DNA of 64,000 nucleotides from Polyangium fumosum. Its GTDB lineage: Bacteria; Myxococcota_A; Polyangia; Polyangiales; Polyangiaceae. Location: positions 1 through 64,000 of the forward strand of contig NZ_SSMQ01000048.1 in NCBI RefSeq assembly GCF_005144585.1, written 5' to 3'. Below are positions 8,898 through 59,774 of the stretch, piece after piece; the first letter of the stretch is position 1, and each line of letters begins with the position of its first letter. The notes beneath the pieces were generated by a model. It searched no databases, was not told the origin of the DNA, and saw only the letters and a list, made by a program, of their open reading frames with translations. The translations under genes were made by a program, and so were the position numbers.

Positions 8898-9049
8898 GGC
8901 GCGAGGGGCGTCGAGGCGCGCGAGAGCGAGGCGGAGGCGCGCGCGCACGACGTGGAGACCGTTCGAGAATGTCAGGAAGGCGTGCGCACGCGACGGGGAG
9001 ACGTGTGGGCACGAGAGGAAGACGCGTGCGCACGCCTTGGAGACGCGTG

Positions 9050-9428
9050 CGCACGTCTCCCAAGTCGCGCGGACGGGTCTCCAAGGCGCGCGGGCACGTG
9101 TCCAAGTCGCGCGGACGGGTCTCCAAGGCGCGCGGACGGGTCTCCAAGGCGCGCGGACGGGTCTCCAAGGCGCGCGGACGGGTCTCCAAGACGCGCGGGC
9201 ACGTCTCCCAAGTCGCGCGGACGGGTGTCCAAGACGCGCGGACGGGTGTCCAAGACGCGCGGACGGGTCTCCAAGGCGCGCGGACGGGTGTCCAAGACGC
9301 GCGGACGGGTCTCCAAGGCGCGCGGGCACGTCTCCCAAGTCGCGCGGACGGGTCTCCAAGGCGCGCGGGCACGTGTCCAAGTCGCGCGGACGGGTCTCCA
9401 AGGCGCGCGGGCACGTGTCCAAGGCGCG
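9050..9428. repeat. 21/22-bp tandem minisatellite (about 17 units)
   Basis: Tandem units built from gcgcgcgg followed by acgggtctccaa or gcacgtgtccaag. Most units are 21 bp, but at least three carry one extra base (tcccaag instead of tccaag, near 9060, 9205 and 9330). Those single-base insertions shift every reading frame, so the array is not under coding constraint despite being open on both strands. Confidence 0.85.
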
Positions 9429-9571
9429 CACACACGCCTCCACGTCGTGCGCGCGCGCCTCAACCTCGCTCGCGCGCGCCTCGGCCGGCGCGCCGACGCA
9501 ACTCGCCGCTTCCGCTGCCGCTCCCGTCCATTGACGCCTCGCCCCGCGAGTGGTCTCTTCTCCCGCTCGCC

Positions 9572-21219: not shown

Positions 21220-21986
21220 GTCTGTCTCCTCGAGAGTTCCGTCGAGACCGGCCTTGTCGATGCCATATGGCTTGTCGGCCGAGCCGGGCACGGCCTGCCC
21301 GTGGCCCTCTTGCCACTGGCGTTGCGGCCAGGACCGGGCAGCCCACCGTTTCGTGACGGGTCGTTGAAAAAAAGGATCGCAGGCGAGGTCCGCGCTGGTG
21401 GACCGCTCCCGCTCCCGCCCCCGCTCAAAGCGGCAGGCCGGTGCGCTGCCATGGAGCGGCGAGGTGCTCCAAAACGGATCGCTGGGTGCTCCAAAATGGA
21501 GCGGGATGGCCCCCAAGACAGGTCCGGGCGACCGGGAACGGTCATGGGGAGGCCCCAAAGGCAGGTCCCCGCACGCGGGAACGGTCATGGGGAGGCCCCA
21601 AAGGCAGGTCCGGGCGGCCGGGAAGGTCTTTGGGGAAGCCCCAAGGTCAGGTCCCCGCGCTCGGGAACGGTCATGGGGAGGCCCCAAAGCCAGGTCCGGG
21701 CGGCCGGGAGGGTCTTTGGGGAGGCCCCAAAGCCAGGTCCTCACACGCGGGAACGGTCATGGGGAGGCCCCAAGGTCAGGTCCCCGCGCTCGGAAGGGTC
21801 TTTGGGGAGGCCCCAAAGGGAAGGGGAGCCGGTCCGCAGGGTGTTCGGGCAGGCCCCCAAGCGGAACCTCCCGCTCTCCGCTGGGATCGGAGAGAATCGT
21901 CCACGAGGTCGACTCGTTCCTTCGCGACCCGCGCGCAGATCGGGCCGCGGGCTGGACACGGCCTGGGGAGTGTTCGATGGTGCGCC
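21220..21986. other. Divergent intergenic region dominated by a 43-bp minisatellite
   Basis: About 770 bp between the MBL hydrolase and the secreted beta-barrel-like protein. The first 180 bp hold a short CCCGCT tract (about 21406-21427) and probably the MBL promoter. The middle is a 43-bp tandem repeat listed separately. I see no supported gene: frames through the repeat are open on both strands but encode only repeats. Confidence 0.6.
21497..21840. repeat. 43-bp tandem minisatellite (about 8 units)
   Basis: Units follow the plan ggtcatggggaggccccaa, then a ggcaggtcc spacer, then a short variable GC block ending cgggaa. Core units start at 21539 with period 43; the first and last are degenerate. 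Two variants alternate irregularly (ggtcatgggg versus ggtctttgggg). The invariant part contains the palindrome GGGGAGGCCCC. Confidence 0.88.
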
Positions 21987-44716: not shown

Positions 44717-45619
44717 TCAGGATTTTCCGGCGCGCATCCGGTGGTGCGCCAGGCGGTCGCTCGTGCTCAGGGTCTCGGGATGACGCTCCCCCAGCGTCTT
44801 TTCTTGAAGGTCGAGCAGCCTCCGCGCGCACGCCTCCGCCTCCTCGTGTTTCTCCTGCACGGCCAGCATGTATTCGAGCAGGAACAACGATTTCAAATGG
44901 TCCGGGTGGCGTTCGCCCAGCGTCGCCTCTTTCAGGGCCGCCACCCTGCGTAGGAGCCCCTCGGCTTCGCCTGCATTCCCCTGCTTCTGCAAGACGCTCG
45001 CGAGCCCGCTCGCCGCCGACCAGAACGCGGGATGGTTTGGGCCCACCGCGCGCTCCTCCAGGACGAGCGCCCTCCGGTGGACCGCCACGGCCTCGTCCAC
45101 CTTGCCCCCGATGCCCAGCACACCGCCGAACAAGCCGAGCAGCGACCGATAAGAGGGCCTTCCGCCGTCCCGCGCGTCGTCCTTTTGGGAGAGGGCGCGC
45201 GAGAGGCTCACCTCGGCCTCCGCGTCTTTTTCGTATTTCCCGAGGACGTTCACGAGGACGTGCAGCGACGCCTCGGTCCGAGGCTCGTCGGGCCCCAGGA
45301 CCTTCTCGTGGAGCGCCAGCACCTCCCGGAGCAAGGCGACCGTTTCTTCGGGTCTGTCCTGGCTCGTCAGGACGGCCGAGAGGAGGTTCAGCGACACCGG
45401 ATAGGCGACATGGCGCGGGTCGAGCGCGTGGCCTTCGAGGGCCAGCGTTCGGCGCAGGAGCGCCTCGATCTCGGCGAACTTCCGTTGCACCAGGAGCGGC
45501 TCGACTTGCTTGACCAGCGCGGCGTCGTCCAGCGCGAAGGCCGCAGGTGCGCCCGTCGATGCTCGTTCCGTGGCGACCTGCTCCGTTTTTTTGCCCTTGA
45601 ACCAGTCGAAAATGCCCAT
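44717..45619 (-). CDS. Tetratricopeptide (kinesin-light-chain-like) repeat protein
   Basis: A 300-aa soluble helical protein (MGIFDWFKGKKTEQ) with about five TPR-like units of 42 residues. The pattern is EALLRRTLALEGHALDPRHVAYPVSLNLLS, VALLREVLALHEKVLGPDEPRTEASLHVL, VAVHRRALVLEERAVGPNHPAFWSAASGL and ACARRLLDLQEKTLGERHPETLSTSDRLA, typical of kinesin-light-chain-type TPRs. It probably mediates protein contacts. It is convergent with the giant pseudokinase, 42 bp apart. No partner is evident. Confidence 0.85.
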   Translation of the reverse strand: MGIFDWFKGKKTEQVATERASTGAPAAFALDDAALVKQVEPLLVQRKFAEIEALLRRTLALEGHALDPRHVAYPVSLNLLSAVLTSQDRPEETVALLREVLALHEKVLGPDEPRTEASLHVLVNVLGKYEKDAEAEVSLSRALSQKDDARDGGRPSYRSLLGLFGGVLGIGGKVDEAVAVHRRALVLEERAVGPNHPAFWSAASGLASVLQKQGNAGEAEGLLRRVAALKEATLGERHPDHLKSLFLLEYMLAVQEKHEEAEACARRLLDLQEKTLGERHPETLSTSDRLAHHRMRAGKS

Positions 45620-45984
45620 GGCGTAGCGAACCTACCCACAAATCCCCCCTCGGTTCAACCCGCGTCGTCCCGTACGACCCCGTCTCTCCGGCCGAAGCTG
45701 CGCGTCGCTCGATGGCGCCACCTCGCCAGGACGAGCAGGTTTCGGGCGCTCGTGGGTGCTCGGGCGTTCGAGGGGTGGCGGGAGACGGTGACGCGTGGGT
45801 GTTCGAAACGTTCGAACACCCTCGCGTCACGGTGACGCGTGGGTGCTGGGGCGGTTGGAGACGCAGAGGAGATGGTGGCACGTGGGTGTTTTGAACGTTC
45901 GAACACCCTCGCGTCACGTCGACGCGCGGGGGTCGCGACGTTTGAAGACGCCGGAGCCAAGCCGGCGGCGCTGCCCGTTGCCTG
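45620..45984. other. Gap with TTCGAA palindrome array
   Basis: This stretch upstream of the TPR gene contains no gene I can support. Its main content is tandem copies of the palindromic repeat listed next. The array is followed directly by element copy F. Confidence 0.6.
45788..45960 (-). repeat. TTCGAA-centred palindromic repeat array, locus 1
   Basis: The first unit (45788-45830) is a nearly perfect inverted repeat: a 20-nt arm starting GTGACGCGTGGGTG and ending TTCGAA, a 3-nt centre, and the mirror arm with one mismatch. A second unit (about 45872-45919) has one decayed arm (TTTTGAACGTTCGAA). The units are joined by a spacer containing GAGACGCAGAGGAGA, whose complement forms the spacer at locus 2 near 58.8 kb, so this array is an inverted relative of that one. 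Confidence 0.82.
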
Positions 45985-46139
45985 TTGAACCCCCCTCCAA
46001 GGTCTTGCCACGGGCCCGTTGGAAGAACTGCGCGCTGCGCAGTTCTTCCACCTTCGGTCCAGGCCGTGCCTGGTCCGGGTCGAGGGGCGGACAGCCCCCG
46101 CGGGGTCCGGGGCAGCGCCCCGGCGGCGCGACGCTCCCC
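45985..46139 (-). repeat. Four-hairpin 3' element, copy F
   Basis: On the minus strand, with its leading edge about 5 nt after the GDPD lipoprotein stop codon. Hairpin 4 has arms GGAAGAACTGCGC/GCGCAGTTCTTCC with loop AGC. Hairpins 1-3 match copy A, with GGCGGCGCGACGC at the leading edge. Confidence 0.85.
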
Positions 46140-57643: not shown

Positions 57644-58552
57644 TCAGCGGAGGGCCGTGATCTCGTGGAGCGCGTGCTCCGCCGGGCCTCGTTTGGCCGC
57701 GATGCGCGCCGTCCGCCCGACCGAGACCTTGTCCGCCACGGCGCGGTAGACGGGCTCTGAGACGAGGAGCCGGCTGCCGACCTCCGCATTCGTGGCCTCG
57801 ACGCGGCAAGCGAAGTCGACCGCGCCGCCCATCGCGGCGACGAGCTTCGTGTCGCTCGCGCCCGCGGGCCCCACGACGACCTCGTCGAGATGCATGCCGA
57901 TGCCGATGTCGAAGGCCCGGCCATGGCTCGTCACGAGGTACGGTTCGAGCTGCTTCACGGCCTCGAACATGCCGAGGGCCGCCCGCACCGCGCGCAAGGG
58001 CGCCTCTGGCTGCCCGTCCGCGCCGAAGAGCGCGGTCAGGCCATCGCCCATGTAATTGTTGATGAAGCCTCCCTCGGCGGCGACGACGCGCCCCATGGCC
58101 TCGAAATAACGATTCAGCACGTAGATCACGTCGTAGGGCTGGAGCGCCTCGGAGAACGCCGTGAAGCCGCGGATATCGGCGACGAGGACCACGACGGGGA
58201 GCTTGGCGCCGAGCGCGGCCGTTTTCCCCGCGCGGAGGCGGCTGATGATCTGCACGTCCTCTTGATCGAGCGCGAGCCTGCGGACGCGGACGGGGCCGCG
58301 CACGGTCGTCTGGCAGGCCATGCGGACGCTCGGCGGCAGCCCGAACCATTCGGCGAGCGATTGCTCCCGCTCGTTCCGAGGGTCGACGTGTTCGAGGCCT
58401 TCGAGCACGACGACGCGGCACGTGGAGCAGCGCGAATTGCCGCCGCAGGCGCGAATGTGCGGGACGCCGGCGGCGAGCGCGGCGGCGAGGAGCGTCTGTC
58501 CTTCCGGGGCATCGAGGGTGATCCCGTCGGGCGCGTAGTGGACCGTGGGCAT
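57644..58552 (-). CDS. Ferredoxin-adenylate cyclase fusion (class III)
   Basis: A 302-aa soluble protein. Residues 1-95 are a plant-type [2Fe-2S] ferredoxin with Cys ligands C36, C42, C45 (CGGNSRCSTC) and C80 (RMACQT). Residues about 130-295 are a class III nucleotide cyclase: VVVLVADIRGFTAFSEAL (metal Asp and hinge), NNYMGDGLTALFG (second metal Asp), AFDIGIGMHLDEVVVGPAG, and ARVEATNA-like CRVEATNAEV. Such fusions are known in several bacteria and link cyclic AMP to redox or iron-sulfur status (inference for regulation). The start ATG MPTVHYAPDG lies at the ferredoxin beginning; the ribosome binding site is weak. It lies upstream of the ABC ATPase gene with 163 bp between. Confidence 0.9.
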   Translation of the reverse strand: MPTVHYAPDGITLDAPEGQTLLAAALAAGVPHIRACGGNSRCSTCRVVVLEGLEHVDPRNEREQSLAEWFGLPPSVRMACQTTVRGPVRVRRLALDQEDVQIISRLRAGKTAALGAKLPVVVLVADIRGFTAFSEALQPYDVIYVLNRYFEAMGRVVAAEGGFINNYMGDGLTALFGADGQPEAPLRAVRAALGMFEAVKQLEPYLVTSHGRAFDIGIGMHLDEVVVGPAGASDTKLVAAMGGAVDFACRVEATNAEVGSRLLVSEPVYRAVADKVSVGRTARIAAKRGPAEHALHEITALR

Positions 58553-58639: not shown

Positions 58640-58925
58640 TCGTGTCGCCTTCGGGTCTCCAAACGTCCGACCCCCCGCTCGTCACGGGGACGCGAGGCTG
58701 TTCGAACGTTCGACCACCCTCGCGTCACGTTTTCCTCTGCGTCTCCAAGCGCCCGACCCCGCGCGCGTCACGGGGACGCGCGCCCGTTCGAGCCTTCGAA
58801 CCCCCCACGCGTCACCGTCTCCTCTGCGTCTCCCAACGCTCGACCCCATGCACGTCACGGTGACGCGCGCCCGTTCGAACGTTCGAACACCCTCGCGTCA
58901 CGTTCTCCCGCGTGGCTTCGAACGT
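58640..58925 (+). repeat. TTCGAA-centred palindromic repeat array, locus 2
   Basis: About three units of roughly 85 bp. Each has a TCTCC-N-AACG-TCCGACCC-like spacer, then GTCACGGGGACGCG, a TTCGAACGTTCGAA-type palindrome (58700-58715, 58793-58806, 58876-58890) and the mirror CACCCTCGCGTCAC. The last unit has the best arms. The array sits in the 514-bp divergent gap between the cyclase and the 235-aa protein; I see no gene in that gap. Confidence 0.82.
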
Positions 58926-59066
58926 CCAGCCACCCGCAAGCGACCAAAACCTGCTCCCGCTGAATGGCCGTTTCCCCCGCGCGTTCAACGACAACCCCGA
59001 CGTTGCATCGCCCGCGTCGCGGCAGATCACCCACCACCACCGGGCCATCGGCCCAGGGAGCCCCTC

Positions 59067-59774
59067 ATGCGCAAGTATCGCAGCAATGCCTCGTCCGCCG
59101 TCCGTTTCGAGTATGGCGTCGAGCTCGCGGCCGGCCTCGCTCACTTCCCGGAGACCACCTCCGCCGCCCTCGACATCCAGACCATCAACGACGCGCTCGG
59201 CGGCCAGCACGACAAGCGCCTCGCCCTCCGGATCCCCGTCGTCAAGACGCGCGCGGCCGCGCGCTTCGCCGAATACAACGCGGAACGTGTCATCCGCTCC
59301 GCCCTCCGCGCCGCCGAGATCGAGGACGGCGGGCGCCGCGGGAGGATCTGCGCGGCCGTGTTCCCGAAAGGCTCGACCCCGGTCGTCACGCCCAAGGGCA
59401 GGGCGCAGGTCAAGCCGATGCAAGACCTGTTCGACCGGCTCAATCTCGCGAAGGTCGCCGGCATCGAGGGATATCGCAATGCCTGGGCGCCCAAGCTCGC
59501 CGCCGCGCTCGGGGGCCTGGAGGCCGCTCTCGCCGTCCATGAGGAGGCCCTCGCCGCCTACGAGGACGCCTTCAAGGCAGAGCTCGCGCTGCGCGACGCG
59601 CACCACGACGCGATCGACCGCGCGATGGGCGTGGTGCGAGCGGCCTTCCCGCGGGATCGCGAGCGGCAGGATGTGATCTTCCCGGTGCTGGAGGCCGCGT
59701 CCAAGAAGGGCGAGGTCGTGCCTGCCGAGGATGCGGACGCGCGCGGGGCGTCTGCCGTCGCGGCGCAGGGCTGA
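59067..59774 (+). CDS. Hypothetical 235-aa helical protein
   Basis: A soluble protein without signal peptide or membrane segment (MRKYRSNASSAVRFEYGVELAAGLAHF). The first half has mixed structure; the second half (about 120-225) is long helices rich in Ala, Glu and Leu (EAALAVHEEALAAYEDAFKAELALRDAHHDAIDRAMGVVR), probably a coiled coil. I do not recognise the family. The ATG start has AGGGAG upstream. It converges on the lipase gene, with element copy G between the two. Confidence 0.7.
   Translation: MRKYRSNASSAVRFEYGVELAAGLAHFPETTSAALDIQTINDALGGQHDKRLALRIPVVKTRAAARFAEYNAERVIRSALRAAEIEDGGRRGRICAAVFPKGSTPVVTPKGRAQVKPMQDLFDRLNLAKVAGIEGYRNAWAPKLAAALGGLEAALAVHEEALAAYEDAFKAELALRDAHHDAIDRAMGVVRAAFPRDRERQDVIFPVLEAASKKGEVVPAEDADARGASAVAAQG

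Follow-up and report, generated by a model that had tools for sequence, protein, structure and literature searches.

Among myxobacterial repeats, the RMX repeat of Myxococcus xanthus has a core of 87 bp. This is close to two units of the Polyangium arrays described here, the two elements being compared by length alone, and a literature search of open-licence papers found none on RMX. The BOX elements of Streptococcus pneumoniae are described as intergenic composites of boxA, tandem boxB and boxC modules, 67 to 637 bp in size with a variable number of boxB, which can affect downstream genes (PMC3049150). REPs are described as palindromes of 20-40 bp carrying an unpaired tag of the GTAG or CGTC family, the CGTC elements being mainly head-to-head dimers (PMC3733652).

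Like BOX, the Polyangium arrays have distinct end modules around a tandem core; unlike BOX, they number seven units in 29 of 35 cases, and the 43-bp period is shared by arrays of unrelated sequence. They resemble REPs and BIMEs in being palindromic, intergenic and multicopy and in having CGTC within the unit, while they differ from REPs in that the units are 43 bp long and run head to tail, and from the REP/RAYT system in that the Y1 transposase is absent from three of the six Polyangium genomes. A CRISPR array was considered and rejected, the units being contiguous, without unique spacers between the repeats. No open-licence paper in the search was recognised as describing the 43-bp arrays. 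We class them with the intergenic modular repeats, a kind already known; what is unusual is that the geometry is kept and the sequence is not.

Arrays in the window

The window, that is, the whole 64-kb stretch of DNA that was analysed, contains two arrays of one family and a third array of the same period but unrelated sequence (Table 1).

Table 1. Positions of the arrays, their parts and the downstream genes in the window, and contigs of the arrays in the own genome.
Feature	Position	Strand	Description	Basis
Array 1	45745..45961	minus	five tandem 43/44-bp units	profile segmentation and repeat search
Units of array 1, in array order	45919-45961, 45876-45918, 45832-45874, 45788-45830, 45745-45787	minus		
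Palindromic unit	45788..45830	minus	inverted repeat; one unit of array 1	
Tail motif of array 1	45735..45742	minus	AAACCTGC, right after the last unit	sequence
Gene downstream of array 1	44717..45619	minus	300-aa tetratricopeptide-repeat protein	ORF list; Pfam TPR_10, TPR_12
Array 2	58643..58944	plus	seven 43-bp units, same family as array 1	segmentation, tandem repeats
Tail motif of array 2	58947..58954	plus	AAACCTGC; opens a block common to the upstream regions of related genes	
Gene downstream of array 2	59067..59774	plus	235-aa protein, "MRKYRSN"	family members carry arrays upstream
Array 3	21495..21872	none	about nine period-43 units, sequence unrelated to arrays 1 and 2	period scan, tandem repeats
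Own-genome arrays of the family	C143 (window contig), C149 and C167, two each; C116, C127, C133, C159 and C187, one each			
Diverged own-genome arrays	C3 and C134, one each			

An earlier note on this DNA had described, at the first locus, a 43-bp inverted repeat with 20-nt arms and one mismatch, followed by a decayed unit, and both features are present. The arms (45788-45807 and 45811-45830) enclose a 3-nt centre and are stretched by the repeat search to 23 nt at 91%, and the decayed second copy (45875-45917) lies 87 bp from the first, with direct repeats of 84 bp that are 81% identical. The palindrome is thus real; what had been missed is that it forms one unit of a five-unit array and that the window holds the third array as well. 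Locus 1 had also been called the reverse complement of the array at 58.6-58.9 kb, including the spacer. The two arrays do belong to the same family, and GAGACGCAGAGGAGA, which sits between the two palindrome copies of array 1, has its reverse complement in the other array, but this "spacer" is the left part of the unit neighbouring the palindrome. Both palindromic units of array 1 score low in the profile (9 bits each) because each has one extra base. The motif ACGTTCGAACACCC, with at most two mismatches, matches the window five times, more than expected by chance: shuffled sequences average 0.44 matches, and none had as many as five.

In array 2, palindromic units alternate with non-palindromic ones. 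In array 3, CTTTGGGGAGGCCCCAAAG is present in alternate units, and the unit consensus has no significant dyad. Other features of the window may be mentioned here. A perfect 14-bp inverted repeat, TGGAAGAACTGCGC, with a 3-nt loop lies just upstream of array 1 (46020-46050), and a similar hairpin is found near an array of genome G004 at 5.397 Mb. An intergenic tandem array with a period of about 21, roughly half of 43 bp, is located at 8935-9498 (127 = 6 x 21.2). The divergent gene upstream of array 2 (57647-58552) encodes a 2Fe-2S ferredoxin domain fused to an adenylate/guanylate cyclase domain.

Unit anatomy and array geometry

The arrays follow a common geometry. Profile segmentation of 35 arrays from six Polyangium genomes (the own genome, G000, and G001-G005) gives seven units in 29 arrays, six in three, five in two and eight in one. 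The spacing between units is 43 bp in 182 cases, 44 in 20 and 45 in two, and it is never below 43, the segmentation penalty for a spacing of 42 being the same as that for 44.

The right half of the 43-bp unit is well conserved and ends in CGTTCGAACACCC(T/A)CGCGTCAC, while the left half is either of a complementary type, GTGACGCG...GTTCGAACG, or of a non-complementary type, GTCTCC...GGGTCTCCAAACG. In the 29 seven-unit arrays, the self-complementarity of units 2, 4 and 6 amounts to 0.60-0.72 for the inner and 0.59-0.76 for the outer part, compared with 0.34-0.47 and 0.38-0.49, respectively, for units 1, 3 and 5. The former units are thus mostly palindromic and the latter are not, which results in a higher period of 86/87 bp. 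The two end units are unlike those inside the array, and the tail AAACCTGC, with at most one mismatch, is found in 21 of the 35 arrays versus 5% of random 130-nt windows. Columns 16 and 29 of units 2, 4 and 6 form a T-A pair in 50 of 60 cases in G000 and G004, and an A-T pair, absent from these two genomes, in 9 of 24 cases in G002 and G005. Strong covariation within the units was looked for and not found; the pairing is mostly that predicted by the composition of the columns, so the covariation is weak.

We propose that the arrays may serve as phased protein-binding platforms of fixed geometry, with about four helical turns per unit, and we assign to this reading a rough probability of 0.45. 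It is favoured because 43 bp corresponds to about four turns of the helix, because a spacing that is never shorter suggests a constraint, and because the dyads offer sites for a dimer. It also draws on the modal number of seven units, the alternating self-complementarity, the T-A/A-T difference at columns 16 and 29, the arrays kept at shared loci, the recurrence of the period in varied sequences and the array classes upstream of the MRKYRSN genes (see below). Each unit would be bound by a protein, probably as a dimer that sits on the dyad, and about 300 bp would become an evenly phased protein-DNA platform, which at loci preceding a gene start would act on the adjacent promoter. Exchange of units between arrays, together with their homogenisation inside each array, would let the sequence turn over at constant spacing and number. 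Several observations count against the platform reading, namely that 43 bp is no whole number of 10.5-bp turns, that array 1 has five units only rather than a fixed seven, that the covariation within units is weak, that the downstream genes have no common function, and that a promoter scan around array 1 found nothing.

Loci, neighbouring genes and spread of the family

The earlier note had taken the two distant copies to point to a dispersed element family, and the genome-wide search that it proposed returned further copies rather than none. The own genome (13.0 Mb) holds 11 arrays of the family and two diverged ones, and relatives occur in the five other Polyangium genomes. With at most three mismatches, TTCGAACACCCTCGCGTCAC has 46 matches in the own genome (37 forward, 9 reverse) versus none for the reversed control. 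A 22-base pattern is found in 5 of 108 genomes of the bacterial family, all of them Polyangium, the sixth Polyangium genome, G003, being without it. A looser spaced pattern gives 54, 73, 21, 9, 8 and 4 matches in the six Polyangium genomes, G004 having the highest number, and at most 11 outside Polyangium among 183 genomes of the order (in G036, where the reversed control gives 3), single matches being common there and near the control level. Four exact matches in genomes other than Polyangium (Natrialba, a Chitinophagaceae MAG, Halorubrum and Haloarcula) are all single sites and were taken as chance. A plasmid or phage origin was rejected, since plasmids and phages gave no match; one match in a viral contig is lone, without a period-43 repeat around it.

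Arrays persist at common loci: nine loci have a counterpart array in a different species that matches in one flank or both, and at such sites the spacing and the unit number last even where almost none of the sequence does. In several cross-species pairs the downstream flank matches directly and the upstream flank is changed, while in two pairs the match is confined to the upstream flank (window array 1/G4_7327 and C149a/G2_C168). The family has also spread by copying, as seen from near-identical G004 arrays in unrelated flanks (9072 and 9927, 94%; 9072 and 5125, 91%). In most comparisons of copies, homology sets in 8-26 bp ahead of the array and stops no more than about 12 bp from its end; in some pairs it reaches further. 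As to their placement, the 12 full arrays of G004 (C1) lie at 3.6-9.9 Mb, avoiding the part of the chromosome around dnaA (11.65 Mb). Many of the fetched loci also have in their vicinity a dispersed repeat of another kind, about 310 bp long and with copies up to 94% identical (e.g., at about L130:6995-7300 and L119:2833-3145).

The earlier note had also stressed the inversion of the two copies and proposed to look for a transposase or recombinase recognising the palindrome. The inversion is not a sign of a mobile copy, since each window array points toward the start of a same-strand gene, as do 9 of the 11 own-genome arrays according to a crude gene caller. A transposase or recombinase is not supported either by the search, which covered the RAYT-type Y1 transposase family (PF01797). 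This family has one match in the own genome, one in G005 and two in G001, and none in G004, G002 and G003. A linked transposase of this kind was therefore rejected, the family being scarce and absent from G004 despite the largest number of pattern matches. The downstream and neighbouring genes have no common function, and the idea of a regulon was rejected for that reason.

The gene downstream of array 2 belongs to a gene family whose members carry arrays upstream. The MRKYRSN protein has no Pfam or NCBIfam match, and its sequence finds nothing better than E 0.49 among solved structures. Its AlphaFold model (mean pLDDT 82.3) is all-helical, with long helices, and a DNA-binding fold was rejected, Foldseek giving no match in the PDB at E 0.001 or better (best 0.069). 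Of the 31 matches to the protein in the genus, those with an identity of 58% or more, 16 in all, were examined. Fifteen of them have an upstream period of 43, 86 or 87, with identities of 0.63-0.91 and a start 309-433 bp before the gene, though as paralogues sharing ancestry these are not 15 independent cases; the sixteenth, a divergent partial match, has no array worth the name (0.47). Read by eye, the arrays contain about seven units. Three array classes (A, B and C), labelled by eye before the protein tree was made, match three protein clades with support of 95/95 to 100/99. The identity of the arrays is 0.69-0.77 within classes and 0.60-0.63 between them, compared with 0.58-0.60 for shuffles. 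In 13 of the 15 genes a block, GAACTCCTGCTC, lies at -121 to -129 from the start codon; that it is promoter-like is only a guess. Homologues of the protein are present in 12 of the 183 genomes from the order. Among these are G053, G054, G091 and G181, as well as G036, which has period-41 arrays, and G043, which has no such arrays in 140 kb.

It is worth considering here a further reading, in which the arrays would be a cis-acting element defined by geometry rather than by sequence, about seven dyad modules at 43 bp being kept through sequence turnover and every MRKYRSN clade retaining a particular array class. Taken furthest, this would mean that MRKYRSN proteins, or partners diversifying with them, recognise the arrays of their own genes, protein and array changing together. 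We consider this unlikely.

We have also considered that the array could act as RNA, the transcript forming a chain of hairpins that would serve as an attenuator, a terminator or a small RNA. Both family arrays of the window fold better than shuffles (z = -5.1 and -5.6), and the orientation of most own-genome arrays toward a same-strand gene agrees with such a role. Palindromes, however, fold well on both strands, the 64-kb window has no Rfam match at gathering scores, the covariation is weak, and the block between array and gene suggests a promoter after the array. We judge an RNA element to be highly improbable.

A somewhat unlikely but less remote alternative is that the arrays are selfish or neutral modular repeats, similar to BOX or REP, that spread without host function, their constant length reflecting recent copying and conversion. 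This would account for the near-identical arrays in unrelated flanks, the confinement of homology mostly to the array edges, the unrelated neighbouring genes and the placement of some arrays between convergent genes (see below). It is less easily reconciled with the same period and number in arrays that hardly resemble each other, upstream of three protein clades, with a spacing that is never below 43, with loci that are stable across species, and with the lack of copies in plasmids and phages.

Period 43 in unrelated sequences

The period is independent of any particular sequence. A first sequence-blind period scan, of 571 kb of DNA selected around family matches and related genes, yields 40 segments with a period of 43 and 35 with one of 86; no other period has more than 11. 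Away from known arrays, 1.2 Mb of Polyangium DNA was sampled, consisting of 400 kb of G000, which is not a random sample but stretches picked away from known places on ten contigs with a known family match, and 800 kb of G004 in evenly spaced pieces. Leaving aside periods divisible by three, these samples contain 11 tandem arrays: eight of 43, one of 44, one of 128 and one of 103, the last resembling a duplicated tRNA gene. The unit sequences of the period-43/44 arrays are varied, and block-shuffle controls, run on the first 800 kb of the 1.2 Mb, gave no arrays. Extrapolation from four arrays in 400 kb and five in 800 kb, a partly non-random sample, suggests about 80-130 arrays per genome.

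Half of the eight period-43 arrays of the first Polyangium samples lie between convergent genes, and a promoter role can therefore not be general. In four of the eight, the unit consensus is without a significant dyad, which also counts against the platform. Sixteen of the 18 arrays checked lie clear of genes according to crude codon-score gene calls; the overlap is 2 bases in L266 and 101 in L267.

Outside the genus, 440 kb of three other genomes of the same bacterial family (G024, G043 and G055) contain no arrays of period 41-44, a weak result given that the Polyangium rate predicts about three. In G036, which belongs to another family, 360 kb contain eight segments: four of period 41, two of which are adjacent, and one each of 43, 85, 91 and 125. 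One of the period-41 arrays in the G036 samples (L235, L266, L267 and L268) has a CATCGATTCGATG dyad.

Such findings raise the possibility of a mutational ruler, in which an enzyme or the replication process would duplicate about 43 bp in tandem whatever the sequence, with a product that is not selected. The occurrence of period 43 in seemingly unrelated sequences is what such a process would yield, and the predominance of period 41 in G036 (four of eight segments) is consistent with it. A ruler should, however, give a wide range of unit numbers, which is found only outside the main family, and it does not explain why array position and number are conserved upstream of the MRKYRSN gene family or why arrays are retained at common loci across species. 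We therefore regard it as improbable.

Intergenic repeats of bacteria are usually classed by sequence, whereas here it is the period and the number of units that appear to be preserved while the sequence changes. Should the geometry be under selection, the arrays would form a natural experiment on the working and evolution of evenly phased protein-DNA assemblies beside genes. If, on the other hand, a copying process sets the period, they would represent a sequence-independent ruler for tandem duplication.
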